Source: Candidatus Kapaibacterium sp. (GTDB lineage Bacteria > Bacteroidota > Ignavibacteria > Kapaibacteriales > UBA961). Taken from it: a stretch of DNA of 36,527 nucleotides. The number at the start of each line of letters is the position of its first letter. Position 1 is the stretch's first letter. The translations under genes were made by a program, and so were the position numbers. The stretch is taken from NCBI GenBank assembly GCA_017302855.1, contig JAFLBY010000011.1, positions 1 to 36,527 of the forward strand, given 5' to 3'. A model generated the notes under the pieces. It was not told the origin of the DNA and did not search any database. It was given only the letters and a program-made list of their open reading frames with translations. This document shows, one piece after another, positions 2,967 through 17,655 of the stretch.

Positions 2967-4355
2967 TTATTCGCCTTGTGCTTTTGAATAGAGGGCAGCG
3001 CCATTTTCTTCATGAAGTTTTTCAATGTGCATCCACGGAAGTTCCGCAGGGAAATTATTGAGAAATTCCAAAATATCATCATCGGTGAGCGGATTTTGTG
3101 CTGTGTAGCGGCAACGCTGACAATCCACAATAACAATATCGGGAATATCGCCCGGATAAATTTTTGTGCCGCGATTGGATACCATAGTTAAAGTCAATTT
3201 TCCTACTGATTTCGGTAAAAGACTAATATCTGTGGTGCGAACAAATATATCAACGCCTTTGATAGTCCACGGTGCTTGTTCTTTGCGTAATTCCTCACGT
3301 GCAATGCGCACTCGCGATGCTATTGCTTCAGCCGACGGCGCAACAGCCGGTAAATCGGCAATTGCCGCACAAATAGCGTCGGTGTATTCTGTTGTTGTTG
3401 CCGAACCGCCAATATCACGTGTTTTGATGCCCGCTTCCAATGTTTTGGTTAAGGCATTTTCAATGAGGGCAGCATGGTCTGTTGCTCCCATATAGCGTAA
3501 CATCTGAATACTTGAGAGGAGAAGTGCTGTCGGATTTGCAAGATTTTTTCCGGCAATGTCCGGCGCAGAACCGTGCACAGCTTCAAACACAGCAGCGTCC
3601 GTACCGATATTACCGCCGGGCGCTACGCCAAGACCGCCAATAAGACCTGCACAAAGATCACTGACAATATCGCCAAATAAATTAGGCAATACGAGTACAT
3701 CGAATTGTTCCGGCTTGATAACAAGTTGCATACATAGATTGTCAATGAGGATATCGCTGTGTTCAATGGCAGGATAGCCGCCGGCAACATCCATAAAGGA
3801 ACGAAGGAATAAGCCATCGGTCATTTTTTGAATATTGGCTTTGTGGACACAGGTTACTTTTTTACGTCCTTCTATGCGTGCCATCTCGAAGGCATAACGC
3901 GCAGCAGCACGTGAGCCGACGCTGGTAATCAAACGCAGACATTGGGCAACTTCGGGTGTTTGCATATGTTCAATACCGCCATAGGTATCTTCAACATTTT
4001 CACGGACAATAATCAAATCCACATTATCATAACGTGTTTTGATGCCGGGGAATGTTTTGCATGGGCGAACATTGGCAAAAAGTTCAAGCGTTTTGCGAAT
4101 TGTCACATTGATGCTTTTATGACCGCCGCCTATGGGGGTTGTGGTGGGTGATTTTAATGCAATGCCATTGCGTGCAATAGAATCAAGAGTCTCTTTGGGT
4201 AAGCCATTGCCGTATTTTTCAATACAGTAAAGCCCCGCATCGGCTTCTTCCCATGCCACAGGAGCATTTGCCGCTGCGAAAATTGTTTTGATGGCTTCGG
4301 CGATTTCAGGACCAATGCCGTCGCCTTTAATTAATGTAACCGTTTGTTTTACCAT
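2967..4355 (-). CDS. icd: Isocitrate dehydrogenase, long form, probably NAD-dependent
   Basis: A 462-residue member of the isocitrate/isopropylmalate dehydrogenase family, catalysing isocitrate to 2-oxoglutarate plus CO2 in the cytosolic TCA cycle. Substrate residues are seen in SINVTIRKTLELFANVRP (81-98) and ENVEDTYGGIEH (119-130, catalytic Tyr about 125), with Lys at about 172. Metal-binding Asp lie in NLFGDIVSD (225-233). The cofactor loop reads HGSAPDIAGKNLANP (261-275). The Asp-Ile where NADP enzymes such as E. coli Icd carry Lys-Tyr suggests NAD+ preference. About 120 extra C-terminal residues match the long subfamily known from Thermus and Rickettsia. The ATG at 4355 gives the canonical MxxxVTLIKGDGIGPE start; an upstream in-frame ATG at 4424 would add 23 unrelated residues. 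Confidence 0.95.
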   Translation of the reverse strand: MVKQTVTLIKGDGIGPEIAEAIKTIFAAANAPVAWEEADAGLYCIEKYGNGLPKETLDSIARNGIALKSPTTTPIGGGHKSINVTIRKTLELFANVRPCKTFPGIKTRYDNVDLIIVRENVEDTYGGIEHMQTPEVAQCLRLITSVGSRAAARYAFEMARIEGRKKVTCVHKANIQKMTDGLFLRSFMDVAGGYPAIEHSDILIDNLCMQLVIKPEQFDVLVLPNLFGDIVSDLCAGLIGGLGVAPGGNIGTDAAVFEAVHGSAPDIAGKNLANPTALLLSSIQMLRYMGATDHAALIENALTKTLEAGIKTRDIGGSATTTEYTDAICAAIADLPAVAPSAEAIASRVRIAREELRKEQAPWTIKGVDIFVRTTDISLLPKSVGKLTLTMVSNRGTKIYPGDIPDIVIVDCQRCRYTAQNPLTDDDILEFLNNFPAELPWMHIEKLHEENGAALYSKAQGE

Positions 4356-10293: not shown

Positions 10294-10655
10294 TCACAGT
10301 GTGGGATTTTTCTTCGGTTGTTTCTTTGGCTTTACTGTCGGCTTCCGGAAACGAAGCACACTCAAGAGAAAAGGGTTGGCTTCCGTATTGAGATTGTATT
10401 GTTCCATACACTTCCTGATGAGAGCATAGCTTTTGATGGTTGTACTTGGGTGATAATGCCATAGTCACGATATGTTCCCCCGTCGTTTTCAGGATTGGTG
10501 CATAAACAGAAAAGTTCGTCAGAACGATGGACATTGCTGCGGATATTGTATCGGAGCTGATAAGCCATCAGCAAGATCAAAACGCATCTTACTATGAGAA
10601 AAGAGTAGAAAATCGCTGAGGTGCTGTGTTTACTCCGGCATAGAGACATTTCCAT
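10294..10655 (-). pseudogene. Possible frameshifted small membrane protein
   Basis: Two overlapping minus-strand frames together read like one short protein. The first starts at 10655, with a hydrophobic segment (AIFYSFLIVRCVLILLMAY) followed by ENDGGTYRDYGIIT. After about base 10460 the neighbouring frame becomes more protein-like (SYALIRKCMEQYNLNTEANP, then a lysine/proline-rich tail) and stops at 10294-10296. A single-base shift between them would give a protein of about 115 residues with one membrane anchor. A third frame (10229-10534) is also open, so the choice is uncertain. It may be a decayed gene, an assembly error or chance. Confidence 0.3.
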
Positions 10656-10715
10656 TCCTCATATTTGGATGGATAAGCAAAGTTTTGTAGTTTTGAGGAA
10701 ACGAGTGACGTTTTG
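10627..10715 (+). repeat. 89-bp direct repeat, copy 1 (contains promoter)
   Basis: This segment aligns without gaps to 13135-13223, starting with an identical 20 bases (TGTTTACTCCGGCATAGAGA) and remaining about 80% identical to GACGTTTTG/GACGTCTTG at the end. Both copies contain the TTTG-N20-TAGTTTTG promoter. Together they bracket the PIN, HEPN-like and four-helix membrane genes. Confidence 0.8.
10664..10695 (+). promoter_or_regulatory. Bacteroidota-type promoter at the head of the cassette array
   Basis: TTTG at 10664-10667 and TAGTTTTG at 10688-10695 with a 20-base spacer. It is placed to transcribe the PIN and HEPN-like genes and possibly read through into following cassettes, most of which have no obvious promoter of their own. 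Confidence 0.75.
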
Positions 10716-10743
10716 TGGCAATATGGGAGATGGCACCAATAGT

Positions 10744-11610
10744 ATGAAGACATTCGTAGAACATTTAACCACTCAACTTGACAGTATTAAACTAACAATG
10801 TTTGAGCTATTGGACAACTCTAGAATAAATTTCCGAAGAGACGACCATTACTCAAACATAGCTGTAATTGCACCAACACGATACTGGGACAATCCAACAG
10901 AAACAGAGCAAACTTTACAAATAAAACTAAAGAAAAACTACGATCAATGGATAGAAACCTTCAAACTGTTCACTAAAAATTCGCCTGAATCTTCAAAGCG
11001 AAAAATTAATGAAACGGATGAGTTTATAATTAATTGGATTGAGAAAAAAAGCGATTGGGAAATACCCAACACTATTGCAGAAGCAAAAGTAAAATTCGAG
11101 AATAGTATAAAATTTTTCTACGACACCTTAAACCTGTATTCAAGTAATGGTGATAAAGAAATAATTATTCTTCCTGACACAAACGCACTAATTCAGGAGC
11201 CTGACCCAAAAACATATAAAACATTATCAGGTTCTGACAAATTAACAATTGTCTTTCTGCCAACTGTTTTGAGTGAACTTGATGAACTTAAACTCAAATC
11301 ATCCAACCCTGACTTTCAAAAAAAAGTAAAATCTGTAATCACCAGACTAAAAGGTTACAGACAACAAGGCAATCTCATTGACGGAGTTACTGTTGAAAAA
11401 ACGATTAAACTTAAAATGGTGGCTTCAGAACCAAATTTTGACAGAACTCTTTCGTGGCTTGACCGAGACAATAACGATGATAGAATAATTGCGAGTGCAT
11501 TAGAAATTCAAAGAGACAATCCTTCTTCAGCCGTATGTTTGGTGACAAGCGACATCAACTTGCAGAACAAGACCGAAATGGCAAGATTATCATATATCGA
11601 TATTGACTAA
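10744..11610 (+). CDS. PIN-domain ribonuclease
   Basis: A 288-residue protein with an unrecognised helical N-terminal region (about 1-135) and a C-terminal PIN domain of the PIN_4 type. All four expected acidic positions are visible: D145 in IILPDTNAL, E178/E181 in SELDELK, D245/D246 in NDDRIIASAL, and D270 in VTSDINLQNK. PIN domains are Mg-dependent RNases found in toxin-antitoxin, RNA-decay and defence proteins. The start is chosen at ATG 10744; an in-frame ATG at 10723 is possible, and anything upstream of about 10700 would precede the promoter's start site. The next gene begins within or just after its end (11603/11633), indicating translational coupling with a HEPN-like protein. Its AT-rich, Asp/Thr/Lys-heavy composition differs from the neighbouring core genes. 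Confidence 0.85.
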   Translation: MKTFVEHLTTQLDSIKLTMFELLDNSRINFRRDDHYSNIAVIAPTRYWDNPTETEQTLQIKLKKNYDQWIETFKLFTKNSPESSKRKINETDEFIINWIEKKSDWEIPNTIAEAKVKFENSIKFFYDTLNLYSSNGDKEIIILPDTNALIQEPDPKTYKTLSGSDKLTIVFLPTVLSELDELKLKSSNPDFQKKVKSVITRLKGYRQQGNLIDGVTVEKTIKLKMVASEPNFDRTLSWLDRDNNDDRIIASALEIQRDNPSSAVCLVTSDINLQNKTEMARLSYIDID

Positions 11611-11632
11611 TTCGCTACAACATAAGAAAGCA

Positions 11633-12277
11633 ATGCAATTAGCACTAACCACATTTATAGCAGGACGAAAAACTGTTGCTGATTGGAATGAAGTAAAAGT
11701 GTCTTTGACTGACTTCAATAACATAAGCCTCTGGACAGCCGTATATAATGATTTTTACTTTACAAGACTTACCGACCGTTACTTAAACCCTATTAAATCA
11801 ATACAAGAAGATGGTGGATATACAGGTGAAGGCTTCTCAATCATGACAATTATTTGCTCACTCATTGAATTTTTAGAAACAACCTATCAAGGTAGAAATT
11901 ATAGATATAGACGTAATGGAGACCCACCGCTTGGACAATACGAATATGGAACGAGTGGACAAATCTTCATTGACTTTCTGACCAATCGAAACCCATTTAA
12001 CACACAGTTTGACAGACAAAATGCTGATGACTTTTATAAAAACATACGCTGTGGGTTATTGCACGAAGCAAGGACAAATGGAAATTGGACAATATGGGGT
12101 AATTCAGGTAATGGAACTCTAATTAAAAAAACAGCAAATGAAACAATCATATATCGAGATGACTTTTATAAAGCATTATTAGATTTCATAAACACGCACT
12201 ATAAGGCAGACTTACTATCATCAGCCGACAGAAAAGAAGCATTCATTAGAAAATTTGACAAGCTATGCGAAGAATAA
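11633..12277 (+). CDS. HEPN-like protein (putative RNase partner of the PIN protein)
   Basis: A 214-residue protein from the ATG at 11633; a TTG at 11603 in the same frame would overlap the PIN gene by eight bases and add ten residues. The alpha-rich body contains IRCGLLHEAR, an R-x4-H motif (R139, H144 from the ATG), which is the catalytic signature of HEPN-domain RNases. A GNW/GN-rich segment and a C-terminal DLLSSADRKEAFIRKFD helix follow. I do not recognise a named family; HEPN assignment rests on this motif and its helical context. Immediate coupling to a PIN gene suggests one functional unit, either two RNases or an RNase with a controlling partner. The attC-like palindrome starts nine bases after the stop. 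Confidence 0.6.
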   Translation: MQLALTTFIAGRKTVADWNEVKVSLTDFNNISLWTAVYNDFYFTRLTDRYLNPIKSIQEDGGYTGEGFSIMTIICSLIEFLETTYQGRNYRYRRNGDPPLGQYEYGTSGQIFIDFLTNRNPFNTQFDRQNADDFYKNIRCGLLHEARTNGNWTIWGNSGNGTLIKKTANETIIYRDDFYKALLDFINTHYKADLLSSADRKEAFIRKFDKLCEE

Positions 12278-12285
12278 CTACGGGT

Positions 12286-12398
12286 GCTAACAGCCATTTT
12301 GCAAAAGCGGGTTCAGTGGTTAATTGAACATTCGGCTCCGAATAAACATTTGTGCTGAAAAAACCGCATTTGTAAAGCTACAAAATGATGGCGGCAAC
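12286..12398 (+). repeat. attC-like palindrome 1
   Basis: It begins with GCTAACA, resembling the R-type core of attC sites. The left arm CATTTTGCAAAAGCGG pairs imperfectly with the right arm CCGCATTTGTAAAGCTACAAAATG. A central hairpin, ATTCGG (12330-12335) with CCGAAT (12338-12343), forms the tip. Unpaired extra bases on one arm are typical of attC. The rest of 12399-12505 is AT-rich with no feature seen. Confidence 0.6.
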
Positions 12399-12505
12399 TC
12401 TACACCTATGTTAAAAAAATGTTGATAATTAACAATTTATAGAACTATTATAATACTAAAGCAACAAAATTAAATTCAACAAATAATCCTCATCATTTCT
12501 AAATA

Positions 12506-12976
12506 ATGAAAACACTTCTTCCAAACTTTAAAACAACCTTTTTAATTGTTGGTTATACGTTCACGTTATTACCATTTAGTCTTTTTACCAAGGGCTTGAT
12601 GAAAAGTATGGCTGAATTCAAAGTGCCTGAATATATTCTGAATTCATCCCATTATTTTGACGCAATACTTTGGGTTTATGTTCATATGACAGTAATAGGG
12701 TTACTCATACTAACTATAGGATATTCTGTCAATGATATAAATAAACAGAAATGGATAGCAACACTACTTTTTTTAGTGACAGCATTTTATGCTTATTTGG
12801 ATTTTCGTAGTGCTGACTGGATTTATGGGAATGCCTTATATAAAGGCGAATCTTCAATAATTCCTGCAATTATCGGCTTGTTAGTTAACTTGCTTTTTTT
12901 TCAGTTAGTGATACGTCTCTTTACAAGTAATAAACTTACAATGAGGAATAATGACAACAAGTTGAGCAGCCGCTAA
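12506..12976 (+). CDS. Uncharacterised four-helix membrane protein
   Basis: A 156-residue integral membrane protein. Four hydrophobic helices are readable at about residues 10-30, 50-75, 83-100 and 118-140. A conserved-looking stretch DFRSADWIYGNALYKG lies between helices 3 and 4, and the polar tail ends in KLSSR. I recognise no family or function. Its TAA stop lies inside the GCTAACA core of the following attC-like palindrome, as often seen in integron cassettes. No promoter was found directly upstream; it may be read from the promoter before the PIN gene. Confidence 0.6.
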   Translation: MKTLLPNFKTTFLIVGYTFTLLPFSLFTKGLMKSMAEFKVPEYILNSSHYFDAILWVYVHMTVIGLLILTIGYSVNDINKQKWIATLLFLVTAFYAYLDFRSADWIYGNALYKGESSIIPAIIGLLVNLLFFQLVIRLFTSNKLTMRNNDNKLSSR

Positions 12977-13088
12977 CAGCACCTACCGAAAAGGCGGGGT
13001 TTTGTGGTTACATCAAGCTTTGTGCATCTACTCAAGTTCAGTGCAGGTTTTCAGTTGAAAAACAGCGAAGCTCAATCGCCATTCGGCG
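12972..13088 (+). repeat. attC-like palindrome 2
   Basis: It starts with GCTAACA at 12972, overlapping the stop codon of the preceding gene. The left arm CCGAAAAGGCGGGGTTTT pairs with a right arm whose reverse complement reads CCGAATGGCG...TGTTTTT. It is followed at 13089-13104 by a perfect GCACCTC-GG-GAGGTGC hairpin and then by the second copy of the 89-bp repeat. Confidence 0.55.
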
Positions 13089-13134
13089 GCACCTCGGGAG
13101 GTGCAATCCCCAGCAATGAATCTCTAACACGCTA

Positions 13135-13223
13135 TGTTTACTCCGGCATAGAGAACTTTCTCTTATTCAGGTTTGGATGGGTAGTCAAAGTTTTGTAGTT
13201 TTGAGGAAATGAATGACGTCTTG
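13135..13223 (+). repeat. 89-bp direct repeat, copy 2 (contains promoter)
   Basis: Partner of 10627-10715, same length and orientation, about 80% identical, with the first 20 bases identical. Confidence 0.8.
13172..13203 (+). promoter_or_regulatory. Bacteroidota-type promoter inside the array
   Basis: TTTG at 13172-13175 and TAGTTTTG at 13196-13203 with a 20-base spacer. It faces the gene starting at 13347. Confidence 0.75.
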
Positions 13224-13250
13224 CGTCAATTTCATATTCGTACATCTATA

Positions 13251-13307
13251 GATTTGCAAAAGTAACTCATTGATAAACTGCGTTTGCATTCAGTAACTAC
13301 GCAAATC
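13251..13307 (+). repeat. Second-family palindrome, copy 1
   Basis: GATTTGC (13251-13257) and GCAAATC (13301-13307) close a long imperfect stem. The left arm continues AAAAGTAACTCATTGATAAAC and the right arm, read in reverse complement, GTAGTTACTGAATGCAAACG. The sequence recurs with changes at 15620-15678, again shortly before a cassette gene. Confidence 0.6.
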
Positions 13308-13346
13308 CGCTGATTGTTATGTGGCAATGATAAGACGACATTAATA

Positions 13347-13796
13347 ATGATAACAGATTTAACTTTTAAGACTAATTCTATTTTTGACTCTGTAGCATAT
13401 GACAAGGATGCCAACGCTTGGTATTTTAGTTTTGCGGACAACATTTACGCATCATCTTCCGGTTTCTGGCGACTACTTAAAGCAAATAGAATTGTTTTTG
13501 TTTCGCTTGACAATGGACGTCAATTCGGACTTCCTCAACCGCTTGACATCGTGGAAAATATTATGAAACAACTGACCGGGAAAAAGTTGACCGAGATAAA
13601 AGTGGATAAAGACACAGGTGACCTGACATTAACGATTTCGGACAACATCCAAATTCAAATTTTTGTAGCTTCATTGGGTTACGAATCTTATGACTTTTCA
13701 TTTGAAGACAAAAGATTCATTGGCTTGGGGTCGGGCGACATTGGAATTATTGAAGCGACAGATAATCCGGAATTATTTATAAAAAGACAGCTGTGA
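13347..13796 (+). CDS. Uncharacterised cytosolic beta-rich protein
   Basis: A 149-residue protein without signal or membrane segments. Alternating hydrophobic stretches (RIVFVSLDNG, LTEIKVDKDTG, DLTLTISDNI, IQIFVASLGYESYDF) suggest a beta-sheet fold like that of small immunity-type proteins (the pattern ISDNIQ...S.GYESYDF recalls DUF6188-like families), but I cannot name it. I chose the ATG at 13347, since the upstream frame extension enters the repeat zone. Promoter at 13172-13203. Confidence 0.55.
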   Translation: MITDLTFKTNSIFDSVAYDKDANAWYFSFADNIYASSSGFWRLLKANRIVFVSLDNGRQFGLPQPLDIVENIMKQLTGKKLTEIKVDKDTGDLTLTISDNIQIQIFVASLGYESYDFSFEDKRFIGLGSGDIGIIEATDNPELFIKRQL

Positions 13797-13814
13797 CAAA
13801 TGAGAAACACAGCA

Positions 13815-13947
13815 GCTAACAACACATTGGCAATAGTCGGGGTTTCGTGTTTCAAAGACAGTTTTGTGGTTACAGAAAGTTCAGTTCTTCGAATAAACGT
13901 TTGAGCTGAAAAACCCGCCCATCGCAAATCTAAAGAACGTTTTAGCC
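13815..13947 (+). repeat. attC-like palindrome 3
   Basis: This is the clearest copy. It opens GCTAACA (13815-13821) and closes GTTTTAGCC (13939-13947), which are inverted relatives as expected for R'' and R' boxes. Inner arms are GCAATAGTCGGGGTTT and AAACCCGCCCATCGC. The next gene starts one base after its end. Confidence 0.65.
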
Positions 13948-13948
13948 T

Positions 13949-14539
13949 ATGAAAAAAAGACTATACTACATATTGACAATGTTGACAATCATTTTGACTT
14001 CTTTCACGGTGGACAAACAGACTGAAAAGACAGAATTTGAAATGAAAGTTGAGACTTTGATAAATAGACTCAAGACAGATTTTGACGAGAGTTCTGAAAG
14101 ATATTTAAACTCAATATACAATGACTTGAACTTGGAGACAAAGATCAAATCGACTTGGAGCAGAACATTGACATTGAAAAGCAAAAGGACTTTTAAAAAT
14201 CATTACGACCAGAAAGTAAAACAAAGACTTTATTTCGGCTTTCACGACTATGAGACAGAAGAAAAATGTAATAAAGCATTTGACACTTTGATGAAATGTT
14301 TAGGAACTGACTGCCAGCCAATAAATTGGGGAGACGAAAAAACAGGACTAAAGACAACCCCATTTATTTACTTAAAGAGTGAGAGACAGATTGTTTTCTG
14401 CATAATAAGTTGTGAACACAAAAATGACTTTTGGGAAGACATTAAACAACTTATAGAAGGAGATTTTAAAACAGGAAAATACAAAATAATAACAGCAGAC
14501 TGCGGTGGACCATTGACATTTAAGACAAATGAAAACTGA
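13949..14539 (+). CDS. Uncharacterised secreted or lipid-free periplasmic protein
   Basis: A 196-residue protein with an N-terminal signal-type segment: MKKR, then a hydrophobic core of about 16 residues (YYILTMLTIILTSFTV). The mature part is polar and helical. Four cysteines are in the second half (two in DTLMKCLGTDCQ, then CIISC), and the C-terminal ADCGG adds another. No family recognised. Its ATG lies immediately after attC-like palindrome 3, leaving almost no leader, so translation signals would have to lie inside the palindrome. Codon use (many GAC, ACA, AAA) matches the other cassette genes. Confidence 0.55.
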   Translation: MKKRLYYILTMLTIILTSFTVDKQTEKTEFEMKVETLINRLKTDFDESSERYLNSIYNDLNLETKIKSTWSRTLTLKSKRTFKNHYDQKVKQRLYFGFHDYETEEKCNKAFDTLMKCLGTDCQPINWGDEKTGLKTTPFIYLKSERQIVFCIISCEHKNDFWEDIKQLIEGDFKTGKYKIITADCGGPLTFKTNEN

Positions 14540-14568
14540 AAACCAAACAGACGAAATTAGAAGCACTG

Positions 14569-14700
14569 GCTATACTGCACCTATAAGAAATTGGCGGTTC
14601 AGTGGTTAAATCAAGCTTTATGCTGACAGACAGTTTAGTGCCTCGAATTGAAAATCAGCGAACCTCAATTGCCAACTTCGGGTAGCTTCAAAACGTTACC
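14569..14700 (+). repeat. attC-like palindrome 4 (degenerate)
   Basis: GCTATACTGCACCTATAAG corresponds to GCTAACAGCACCTACCGAA of palindrome 2. AAATTGGCGG pairs with CAATTGCC on the right, and the element ends near AACGTTACC. The outer box is weaker than in the other copies. Confidence 0.5.
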
Positions 14701-14723
14701 TACAAGCCTAAAAGACAAACACA

Positions 14724-15023
14724 ATGCTAGATTTTTACATCATAAATGACGACCAAGAAAAACCAAACTATCCTGAGAAATTAGGACTTGAGTTCGCTGG
14801 TGGACTTGATAACAAAACATTTGACAATTTGCAGAACAAAGGAATTATTGACAGACGATTTGACTATTATTCAGACTTCAGATTAGGGACTTTGCTAATT
14901 AATCAAATTCGACAAACTATTATAAAAAAACAACTTCAAGCAGACAATGATGTAAAAAAAATAACACAATTATTTGACACTGCCAGCAAAAAACAAAGCG
15001 GACTAATAGCCTATGGAGACTAA
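14724..15023 (+). CDS. Small uncharacterised protein, first of an overlapping pair
   Basis: A 99-residue cytosolic protein with a readable core DFYIINDDQEKPNYPEKLGL, then GGLDNKTFDNLQNKGIIDRR, and an amphipathic C-terminal helix. No family recognised. It ends eleven bases into the next gene (15013), the type of overlap used for translational coupling. Such paired small genes in mobile cassettes are often toxin-antitoxin or toxin-immunity partners, but nothing in the sequences proves this. Confidence 0.55.
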   Translation: MLDFYIINDDQEKPNYPEKLGLEFAGGLDNKTFDNLQNKGIIDRRFDYYSDFRLGTLLINQIRQTIIKKQLQADNDVKKITQLFDTASKKQSGLIAYGD

Positions 15024-15423
15024 AGATAATATAGAACAAATTTTTGTGAATTTTGTCAAAGACTTTGTAGCAAAGGACAAGCAAGATAGAATTCTACAAT
15101 TTTTTCAAAACAAAAAAGACTGGTGGAAAATTAAAATCGAATTTCATACATCAAATCCATTTGACAGTAAAAAAATATTAGAAATAGAACCTAATCAACA
15201 ATATGCGGACAATATCTATGTGAAGCTAAAAAAACTGGGGACGAAAGAAGAATGTTTATCACTTTTGGACTATCTAAATAATGAAACTTATAATTGTAAA
15301 CTAGAGGACAAACTTGCCGACACAGTTGGTTTTTTATATGAGACAATTATTTATTGTCCAGCGACAAAAACTGGCTATTTTGAAAGCGGACACGCAAAGG
15401 ATAGATATATATTAAAATCTTAA
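15013..15423 (+). CDS. Uncharacterised protein, second of an overlapping pair
   Basis: A 136-residue protein overlapping the preceding gene by eleven bases (ATGGAGACTAA). It contains KKDWWKIKIEFHTSNPF, then LADTVGFLYETIIYCPATKTGY, and ends RYILKS. No signal or membrane segment. No family recognised. The pair is enclosed by attC-like palindromes 4 and 5 and so behaves as one cassette. Confidence 0.55.
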   Translation: METKDNIEQIFVNFVKDFVAKDKQDRILQFFQNKKDWWKIKIEFHTSNPFDSKKILEIEPNQQYADNIYVKLKKLGTKEECLSLLDYLNNETYNCKLEDKLADTVGFLYETIIYCPATKTGYFESGHAKDRYILKS

Positions 15424-15482
15424 CAGAGGAACAATTTAAAAAATGGAGACCGACATAAAAAAATATTGACAAAAAAAACAGC

Positions 15483-15608
15483 TACTAACATCAATTTGGT
15501 AATATGGCGGGTGAAGCGCTTCTATGAAACATTTGTGCACGATTCAATAGCAGCAATTCTATTGAATTTATGTTAGAAATTCTGCCACCAAAGCAAAGGC
15601 CGAAAACG
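15483..15608 (+). repeat. attC-like palindrome 5
   Basis: It starts TACTAACA. TTTGGTAATATGGCGGG pairs with TCTGCCACCAAAGC on the right. The central tip is a perfect 8-bp hairpin, ATTCAATA (15542-15549) with TATTGAAT (15560-15567). The remaining bases up to 15714 hold only the second-family palindrome. Confidence 0.6.
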
Positions 15609-15619
15609 GTGCATATATA

Positions 15620-15678
15620 CATTTGCAAAAGTACTTCATTGGCAAACACGTTTGCATTCAGTAGCTGTACATAATCCG
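15620..15678 (+). repeat. Second-family palindrome, copy 2
   Basis: Shares ATTTGCAAAAGTA, then GTTTGCATTCAGTA with 13251-13307. Arms TACTTCATTGGCAAAC and, in reverse complement, CTACTGAATGCAAAC pair imperfectly. It lies 37 bases before the TetR-type gene. Confidence 0.55.
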
Positions 15679-15714
15679 AAAATACTAGCTGAATTTATTT
15701 ACAAAAGACACTCG

Positions 15715-16263
15715 ATGACAGATAAGACAGAAATATGGATAATTGAAGGATATGAAATTTTTGCTTTGTGGGGTGAGAAGGGACTGATTATAGAGCAACT
15801 TGCAAAAAAAGTTGGAAAAAGTAAATCATCTTTCTATCACCACTTTGCTGACTTGGATATCTTTTTAGAAAAAATACTATTATATCATTTGAAACAGTCG
15901 TCAATCATTGCAGAGAAGGAAAGAAAAGCCAAGAATATAAATCCGGATTTGATAAATATCCTCATTGAACATAAAATTGATTTACTTTTCAATAGACAGC
16001 TTAGAATATACTCAAATAAGTCTAATTTTAAGGACACGCTTATTAAATCCAGTAAAATTATTGGTACAGACTTTGTAAAACTTTGGTTAACGGACGAAAA
16101 ACTTAACTTGACACCAAAACAGGCTGAAGCTATTTTTGCATTAGCAATGGAAAATTTCTATCTTCAAATCAACCAAGACAACATCAACAAAGAATGGCTA
16201 ACGACGTATTTTGACAATCTAAAGAGGATTACACGACACTTTGAAACAACCATTGTACGGTAG
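15715..16263 (+). CDS. TetR/AcrR-family transcriptional regulator
   Basis: A 182-residue protein. The N-terminal 50 residues form the TetR-type helix-turn-helix, with GLIIEQLAKKVGKSKSSFYH followed by HFADLDIFLEKIL. The C-terminal part is a diverged all-helical ligand or dimer domain, as usual in the family. The ATG at 15715 puts the helix-turn-helix at the normal position; the longer frame upstream reads into a repeat. The small membrane gene 70 bases downstream lacks its own palindrome and is the likely regulated partner within the same cassette. Ligand unknown. Confidence 0.82.
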   Translation: MTDKTEIWIIEGYEIFALWGEKGLIIEQLAKKVGKSKSSFYHHFADLDIFLEKILLYHLKQSSIIAEKERKAKNINPDLINILIEHKIDLLFNRQLRIYSNKSNFKDTLIKSSKIIGTDFVKLWLTDEKLNLTPKQAEAIFALAMENFYLQINQDNINKEWLTTYFDNLKRITRHFETTIVR

Positions 16264-16333
16264 CGACTAAAATTTAAGATGATTAATAACTAAGTTTGTC
16301 AAAATTTTCCACTTATTTCTTACTTGTAGAATT

Positions 16334-16675
16334 ATGAACAATATCAGCTTTATAAAAATTCTTTTAATCGTTCAGACAATTGGACTGTTGATATACACAT
16401 TCTTTGCATTTCAAACGGAAGGTGCAGCCCTATTTAGTGTCTTTACTAATAATGTGTTATCGTTGAATTGGTCGGGCCAATTTAATCTTGACTTTCTTTG
16501 CTATCTAACACTTTCAGGGTTATGGATAATGTGGAGAAACAAGTTTACAACCAAGTCAATTATTTTGGGTTTGTTTGCAATGGTACTAGGTATAATTATG
16601 TTTGCACCGTATATACTTTGGCTGACAAGTAAAGAAAACGGAAACATAAAACGAGTATTAATTGGCGACAGATAA
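16334..16675 (+). CDS. Small membrane protein (DUF2834-like pattern)
   Basis: A 113-residue protein with three hydrophobic helices (about 5-25, 48-66, 74-95). The order FFAFQTEG, then NLDFLCYLTLSGLWIMWR, then a third helix resembles the DUF2834 family of small membrane proteins, whose function is unknown. This is from memory of the pattern, not a search. It shares a cassette with the TetR-type regulator and is followed by attC-like palindrome 6. Confidence 0.55.
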   Translation: MNNISFIKILLIVQTIGLLIYTFFAFQTEGAALFSVFTNNVLSLNWSGQFNLDFLCYLTLSGLWIMWRNKFTTKSIILGLFAMVLGIIMFAPYILWLTSKENGNIKRVLIGDR

Positions 16676-16682
16676 AAGAAAA

Positions 16683-16808
16683 ACAAGTGTGTGGCAAAAA
16701 TGTGGGTTCAGTGGATAAATGAAGTCTTGTGCTTACATCAAGTTTTAGTACAACTTGATAGTTTAGTGATTAGATATTCTATACTTCGTCAAGCTGAATA
16801 CGCTATCT
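16683..16808 (+). repeat. attC-like palindrome 6 (degenerate)
   Basis: The left half (GGCAAAAATGTGGGTTCAGTGG) is close to palindrome 1. The tip is a perfect 7-bp hairpin, TCAAGTT (16738-16744) with AACTTGA (16752-16758). The right outer arm is poorly conserved. Confidence 0.45.
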
Positions 16809-16845
16809 ACAACAATAACATACAATAGCAAAAAAAACAGATATT

Positions 16846-17655
16846 ATGAAATCATCGAATAAAATTAAACTTGCAAACTTGACGACGTGGACAATGGTAA
16901 TAACTATTTCCTTTATTACTATATTCTTTATTGGGTTCATTGTGACAAATACCTTCGACCTCAATGTATTTACAAGTAGGGCATCCAATTTTATTTTCTC
17001 CTTTATTGGATTTAGTTCAGTCATTGTTCTATGTTCTGCAATTTTAAATATAAGTCTTAATATTAGCATAATTGCAGATAGTAAAAAACAAGAACTTCAA
17101 ATCAATGAGACAAGTTTTGTTAGTAAGAAATTTCTACTCTCGACATTAGCAGGGGTGATAATTATTGTCTCATTTCTGTTTGCTGGGGACTATATAACAC
17201 GAGAAAATGAGAAAAATAAATTAGTTTCAGAAGCCAATGACATAATCACTCGTTATAAAGCTTCTATAGACAAAATACCTATTTGTCTTGCGGATACTTC
17301 TAAAATTGGGGGCATTCCCGAAATTTTAAAATTCTTATCTAATCAGAAGCAAGAGTTCGCTTCAGTAGCTCTTATTACAACAAGCACCTATAATAGACAA
17401 TTGACGTTTCTTGAAATAAATGAATTCGACAATGAAGAAAACTTAAAAAAACCATTTTATAATTACTCATTTTACAAATGTCAAATCCAGGACTGCGAAT
17501 ACTTAAAAGAGTACTTCACAGGGAAGACAAAAGAAAATTATTTTTGGACGCAAAAAAATGACTATAAATTTTACTTCCCATTTGACAATAAAGGGAAAAA
17601 ATATATACTTCTATTTACAAAATATGAAAGAAATGGCAAAATTGGTTCATACTGA
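16846..17655 (+). CDS. Uncharacterised membrane protein with C-terminal soluble domain
   Basis: A 269-residue protein with three transmembrane helices (about 15-37, 50-72, 92-113). A soluble domain of about 150 residues follows, beginning with a charged helix (ENEKNKLVSEANDIITRY) and ending with paired beta-like segments such as NDYKFYFPFDNKGKKYILLF. No family recognised. It is the last gene of the array; no palindrome of the attC-like family follows it, which marks the right end. Confidence 0.55.
   Translation: MKSSNKIKLANLTTWTMVITISFITIFFIGFIVTNTFDLNVFTSRASNFIFSFIGFSSVIVLCSAILNISLNISIIADSKKQELQINETSFVSKKFLLSTLAGVIIIVSFLFAGDYITRENEKNKLVSEANDIITRYKASIDKIPICLADTSKIGGIPEILKFLSNQKQEFASVALITTSTYNRQLTFLEINEFDNEENLKKPFYNYSFYKCQIQDCEYLKEYFTGKTKENYFWTQKNDYKFYFPFDNKGKKYILLFTKYERNGKIGSY

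Follow-up and report, generated by a model that had tools for sequence, protein, structure and literature searches.

The window analysed here, 36,527 nucleotides of contig JAFLBY010000011.1 from a Candidatus Kapaibacterium genome, almost certainly contains an integron-type array of gene cassettes. Between its small plus-strand genes, at 12281-16813, stand six attC-type sites about 120-150 bases long (Table 1). The whole is very probably best explained as a partly decayed integron array of a variant integrase, a tyrosine recombinase lacking I2, the helix specific to the integron integrase IntI. The evidence that sequence provides consists of a site family with a covarying structure, cassettes that form units, an attI beside an integrase, exact points of exchange and the absence of I2. 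By strict definition the array is not a canonical integron, since I2 and the core consensus were both tested for and neither was found, but it works like one.

A distinct class of attC sites

The covariance model R3, built from 66 attC sites all of other genera, finds exactly the six elements in the window, on the plus strand, with E-values from 9.5e-13 to 6.7e-4; the next match lies at 0.019. With no further match under this value in 36.5 kb, the elements are far beyond chance; they are attC-type cassette sites. They stand where an earlier note, made from the letters of the window, had placed them, and they are also recovered by pattern and profile searches. The training sets of two other models, R1 and R2, included some of the sites that these models later found, a circularity that R3 and a set of independent loci avoid in the key tests. 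A search of Rfam gave no match to the elements.

Conservation of a foldback structure, as expected of attC sites, is seen in the covariation. Across 89 related sites three helices (R''/R', formed by the two cores, an inner stem of 10 pairs and a stem of 5) give a covariation score of 0.428, against 0.160 in shuffled controls and at most 0.10 when the structure is slid along the alignment, and 76.4% of paired positions are complementary, against 58.2% after shuffling; this alignment was fitted to the structure. A plain MAFFT alignment of 22 sites gives weaker covariation (0.215 against 0.141), still beyond all shuffles. When the six are folded singly as single-stranded DNA, their stability in no case exceeds that of shuffled sequences, so that the attC-like folding suggested in the earlier note emerges from comparison across relatives and not from the individual elements.

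The core boxes of the array depart from RYYYAAC/GTTRRRY, as the earlier note had remarked, and the departure is both real and general: only one of the 66 foreign sites fits this consensus in both boxes. AAC is kept in all 66 and GTT in 62, while the other core letters vary, and the core rule of the class is YAAC/GTTR. The boxes in the window are therefore not those of bad sites but follow the rule of a different, widespread class of attC. Among the foreign sites the spacer between core and inner stem has one base on the left and usually five on the right, an asymmetry that could mark the strand.

Cassettes as units and their exchange

If cassettes are cut inside R', as in integrons, each starts with R' letters, and the R'' of a site should therefore be complementary to the R' one site before it. 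In 53 consecutive pairs, R'' matches the preceding R' at 3.09 of 5 positions on average, its own R' at 1.96 and shuffled partners at 1.93; none of 5000 shuffles reached the observed value. The effect is larger in 14 loci used for no model (38 pairs), with 4.92 of 6 positions for the preceding R' against 2.53 for the site's own; here 25 of the 38 pairs are perfect with the preceding R', compared with 2 with the own R'. The core at the end of a cassette thus complements the core at its own start and not the core that follows the cassette, as expected of units cut at G|TT (the bar marks the point of exchange). Within the window, clear links are confined to the attI tail with attC 1 and attC 1 with attC 2, each agreeing at 7 of 9 positions.

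Cassette order was also compared between relatives. The window locus has no counterpart in a congener (G001) that carries an identical integrase, and synteny of the downstream flank in congeners is absent but for short promoter repeats; the test of exchange was therefore made at the integrase locus of the two genomes. Upstream of the crossover they are 99.3% identical over 3016 bases, up to GAGAG|TTAGC, and they rejoin at CG|TTGGGCGC (CG|TTGGGC) with 100% identity over the 190 bases available. Between these breakpoints one genome has 3.4 kb with hsdM/hsdS and the other 6.0 kb with four other cassettes. Both breakpoints, for which blastn was also run, coincide with the predicted recombination points; cassettes have thus been exchanged between related strains. 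Together with the unit test and the covariation, this exchange supports the integron-type array proposed from the letters of the window.

attI and the promoter repeat

A first cassette entering at attI should leave, beside the integrase, GTT and letters complementary to the first R''. A complete match to this expectation (9/9) is found in 19 of 20 loci where integrase and cassettes are codirectional, mostly within about 300 bases of the integrase stop, in 6 of 8 divergent loci, near the gene start, and in 12 of 13 independent loci. The letters ahead of the GTT are about CATATAAACAA|GTT. In the window genome an attI adjoins the integrase gene on contig C201, 237 bases beyond its stop, and the congener has its attI at the same distance. 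Between integrase stop and attI on C201 (L008, around 3757-3853) lie two near-identical 33-base palindromes (CAATACAAAATGCGCATTGCGCATTTTGTATTG), also present at locus L063 and absent from the window copy.

The attI copy in the window is preceded by a stretch (10557-10597) with 78.6% identity over 42 nt (E 0.004) to the end of the C201 integrase gene. It sits where an integrase would be expected to end, just upstream of the first attI copy, and is probably a scrap of an integrase 3' end, a match that is suggestive and not in itself conclusive. From this position the integrase of the window array appears to have been lost, another being retained in the genome.

In this genus the attI lies in a repeat (D2) with a Bacteroidota-type promoter motif, recognized by consensus only: TTTG-N20-TAGTTTTG with a TGACG..CGTCA hairpin. 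At least 40 copies occur in the genome, in the window at 10641-10729 and 13149-13231 as well as at 793, 1770 and 20044, and elsewhere on contigs C277, C239, C229, C24, C7, C46 and C233. It often heads cassettes, and for a set of 16 copies the tails agree with the following attC core more closely than shuffled controls. We considered it as a pure copy of attI and rejected this, since it recurs at many other places, in part ahead of ordinary genes; it is a promoter repeat dispersed through the genome, which in this genus also makes up the attI. A second repeat (GCATCTATACATTTGCAAAAGTACTTCATTGACAAACTGCGTTTGCATTCAGTAACTG), often placed after the promoter repeat or an attC, occurs in the window at 13240-13320 and 15609-15690 and in many copies at loci L049, L050 and L055-L057.

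A genome that contains a dispersed repeat in so many copies raises the question of whether the six elements are themselves dispersed palindromes, such as repetitive extragenic palindromes or miniature inverted-repeat transposable elements, lying between genes by chance. Neither the complementarity of cassette ends, nor the matches at attI, nor the exact breakpoints of exchange would be expected of such repeats, and the unit test contradicts the idea strongly; we regard it as extremely improbable.

An integrase without I2

A strict consensus pattern for the attC class has a single match in the genome, the best-preserved site, on C201, and this led to the integrase: the match shares its neighbourhood with a tyrosine recombinase of 355 residues. 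Along the cassettes the integrase is followed by a repeat of 110 bases, then by hsdM/hsdS genes (identified by sequence, with no family search) and a complete attC. The window has this repeat twice, at 10613-10734 and 13119-13231. The best NCBIfam model for the enzyme is XerA-like, at 205.6 bits against a cut-off of 220, and the IntI model TIGR02249 scores 192 bits against a cut-off of 265. The genome's two other Xer-like proteins are encoded on contigs C168 and C239.

About 42 residues that include the I2 helix, and with it the additional domain marking canonical IntI, are missing from the enzyme and its clade. In the alignment to IntI4 (PDB 2a3v), IntI4 residues 203-249 have no counterpart, and the KDR and HxLRH motifs stand 58-59 residues apart in almost every member measured but 100-102 apart in IntI. 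The predicted structure of a clade member (mean predicted local distance difference test score 82, predicted template-modelling score 0.56) has no helix between those at 254-267 and 284-297, and has an extra N-terminal domain; Foldseek still returns IntI4 as the best solved match to the model. In the integrase of locus L109 a beta-beta-alpha-beta-beta domain occupies residues 1-65. This domain is found in many but not all attC-linked members, and is therefore not required for the association.

A tree of 95 rows, from a quick search and with weak deep branches, places all 25 attC-linked I2-less enzymes in one clade of 48 rows (SH-aLRT, an approximate likelihood-ratio support, 92), which is Bacteroidota wherever the record names a phylum. 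Canonical IntI form a separate group (SH-aLRT 100) that is not nested in this clade, and the two Xer-like proteins of the window genome also fall outside the clade.

Association of enzyme and sites

Among loci with at least 2 kb downstream, the attC type is carried by 19 of 20 in the I2-less clade and by 2 of 23 outside it (p 5e-9). Of 296 genomes sampled from the phylum, 147 have the attC type, 86 have the integrase family and 76 have both (p 1e-18). Very probably the I2-less enzyme is the recombinase of the array.

With six attC sites and no intact integrase, at most the 3' scrap, the window fits the definition of a cluster of attC sites lacking an integrase (CALIN; at least two attC sites and no integrase nearby). 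The attC sites might accordingly have been moved by an ordinary IntI, acting in trans or since lost, the I2-less recombinase being incidental. A canonical IntI is no rarity in the phylum (57 of 198 genomes), and some genomes (G153, G206, G076, G066, G079 and G096) combine one with an I2-less integrase that has an attC type of its own. In such genomes, however, the two systems sit on different contigs; no attC-type match at E<1e-3 was found in the flanks, up to 10 kb, of 20 canonical IntI loci, as against 19 of 20 loci of the I2-less clade; and it is the I2-less gene that attI adjoins. No IntI exceeds the cut-off in the window genome or the congener, and for this genome we reject a canonical IntI as the enzyme. 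An array moved by ordinary IntI is thus improbable. The earlier description of an orphan cluster is right in that the window has no intact integrase and the genome no IntI above the cut-off, but it has to be amended by the attI copy, the probable scrap and the intact integrase on C201.

How the array may have been built

An old and now partly decayed array is envisaged, in which cassettes would have inserted one behind another at the attI at 10613-10737, then beside an integrase of which probably only the scrap remains. The first genes would be transcribed from the promoter within the attI repeat. C201 carries, with an attI and attC of its own, an intact integrase of what would be the same system. 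The integrase would recombine G|TT in attI with G|TT at the foot of a folded attC of about 140 bases; since the cut falls within the right core, a cassette would start with TTR... and end with ...YAAC, the two being complementary. We infer that the enzyme acts on these sites and that the C201 enzyme may still act on those of the window. Recombination by the I2-less enzyme on a folded single strand, by analogy the bottom strand, is likely, to a lesser degree than its role as the recombinase.

Several points weigh against this reading. The case for recombination is built from comparison of sequences. In 71 genomes the attC type occurs without an integrase above the strict threshold. The window genome is a draft in 298 contigs, 94% complete, so that an IntI may have gone undetected, and the cores in the window degenerate after the second cassette. 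Finally, covariation is blind to the difference between folded DNA and folded RNA. This last point leaves room for an integrase that uses the sites as double-stranded DNA, in the manner of Xer, the stem being kept for another reason such as RNA structure in the cassette transcript. The enzyme lacks the helix that in IntI docks the extrahelical bases of folded attC (PMC7790495), and its nearest relatives in sequence include Xer recombinases. Yet the stem is placed exactly about the point of exchange and takes in both cores, attI is recombined at the same G|TT but, on inspection of the contexts, has no comparably long stem, and the resulting asymmetry of attI and attC is that of integrons. Double-stranded exchange is therefore rather unlikely, and recombination of the folded strand the better account.

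Features and cassette genes

As Table 1 shows, six of the seven cassettes originally proposed end in an attC, whereas the gene after the last site does not. The stop codon noticed within a core is that of the cassette 2 gene, which ends in the TAA of GCTAAC in attC 2. The cassette 3 product has a relative (34.5% identity over 110 amino acids) at a Rufibacter locus (L126) with an I2-less integrase and attC. A PADLOC run on the cassette proteins gave nothing convincing.

Table 1. Features of the cassette array, in window coordinates (E-values for attC sites are from R3; ORF, open reading frame)
Feature	Position	Strand	Remarks
Integrase 3'-end remnant, probable	10557-10597	+	Pairs with codons for TDKSISKIKSPLDL of the intact C201 integrase
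attI copy with Bacteroidota-type promoter	10613-10737	+	77% identity over 133 nt to C201 attI
Promoter in attI copy, by consensus only	TTTG 10664-10667, TAGTTTTG 10688-10695	+	
Crossover point of attI copy	after 10729	+	GGGAG|ATGGCACC
Cassette 1, whole	10738-12277	+	Two ORFs
Cassette 1, PIN_4-domain protein	10738-11607	+	Pfam PIN_4, E 4.2e-16
Cassette 1, second ORF	11636-12277	+	No Pfam match
attC 1	12281-12398	+	E 3.6e-10
Cassette 2 ORF	12506-12976	+	No Pfam match
attC 2, right arm disturbed, then second attI/promoter-like repeat	12967-13117	+	E 8.5e-7
Second attI/promoter repeat copy, within array	13119-13231	+	79-80% identity to other copies
Cassette 3 ORF	13347-13796	+	No Pfam match
attC 3, best preserved in the window	13810-13950	+	E 9.5e-13
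Cassette 4 ORF	13949-14539	+	No Pfam match
attC 4	14564-14706	+	E 1.3e-9
Cassette 5, two overlapping ORFs	14724-15023, 15013-15423	+	No Pfam match
attC 5	15479-15618	+	E 6.7e-4
Cassette 6, whole	15715-16675	+	Two ORFs
Cassette 6, TetR-like regulator	15715-16263	+	Pfam TetR_N below cut-off
Cassette 6, small ORF	16334-16675	+	
attC 6, degenerate left core	16674-16813	+	E 6.6e-5
Gene after last attC	16846-17655	+	No attC found downstream

Relation to known systems

The system shares with integrons (IntI, attI and attC, including the sedentary chromosomal integrons of Vibrio type and CALINs) the common direction of its cassettes, palindromic attC arms, exchange at G|TT, an attI beside the integrase gene, complementary cores at the start and end of each cassette, and exchange between relatives. 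It differs in an integrase without I2, in YAAC/GTTR cores among which RYYYAAC/GTTRRRY is rare, in the 1-by-5 asymmetric loop, in an attI core of about ATATAAACAA|GTT, and in an integrase usually codirectional with its cassettes, divergent in some loci. The closest kin without the I2 insert are the Xer/XerA recombinases, but the enzyme here sits with cassette arrays and attI, in a separate Bacteroidota clade.

I2 has been described as necessary for cassette capture, as found only in integron integrases and as the innovation that enabled integrons, with no ancestor on hand (PMC7790495), and it serves in the definition of IntI (PMC9668308). Smyshlyaev et al. (2021, PMC8138268), in classifying tyrosine recombinases, found the insertion to be not fully conserved in an integron-like subgroup and call it essential for integron function; their text does not mention attC and ties no I2-less enzyme to attC arrays. 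A search of the open literature, preprints and most subscription papers lying outside it, turned up no account linking I2-less enzymes to attC arrays, and an earlier description is possible. The frequency of the attC type, near one half among the genomes sampled from the phylum, contrasts with a 2022 survey in which complete integrons in Bacteroidetes came almost only from Salinibacter ruber (PMC9024848).

Outside Bacteroidota, I2-less recombinases with attC-like sites were seen at L146 (Peregrinibacteria), where the attI match is again 9/9, at L141 (Spirochaetota) and at L179; the Peregrinibacteria locus and the Spirochaetota site are possible members of the system.

On balance, we lean towards the view that integrons have a second lineage, which would be present in roughly every other genome sampled from the phylum and may extend to Peregrinibacteria and Spirochaetota. 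In it an I2-less recombinase would capture cassettes through folded attC sites, either as an independent route to the same end or as a state that preceded I2. Such a system offers natural material for testing the necessity of I2, and through the array the evolution of integrons becomes accessible to test. Since its attC sites lie off the standard core consensus, a large reservoir of mobile and mostly uncharacterised genes may have been overlooked.

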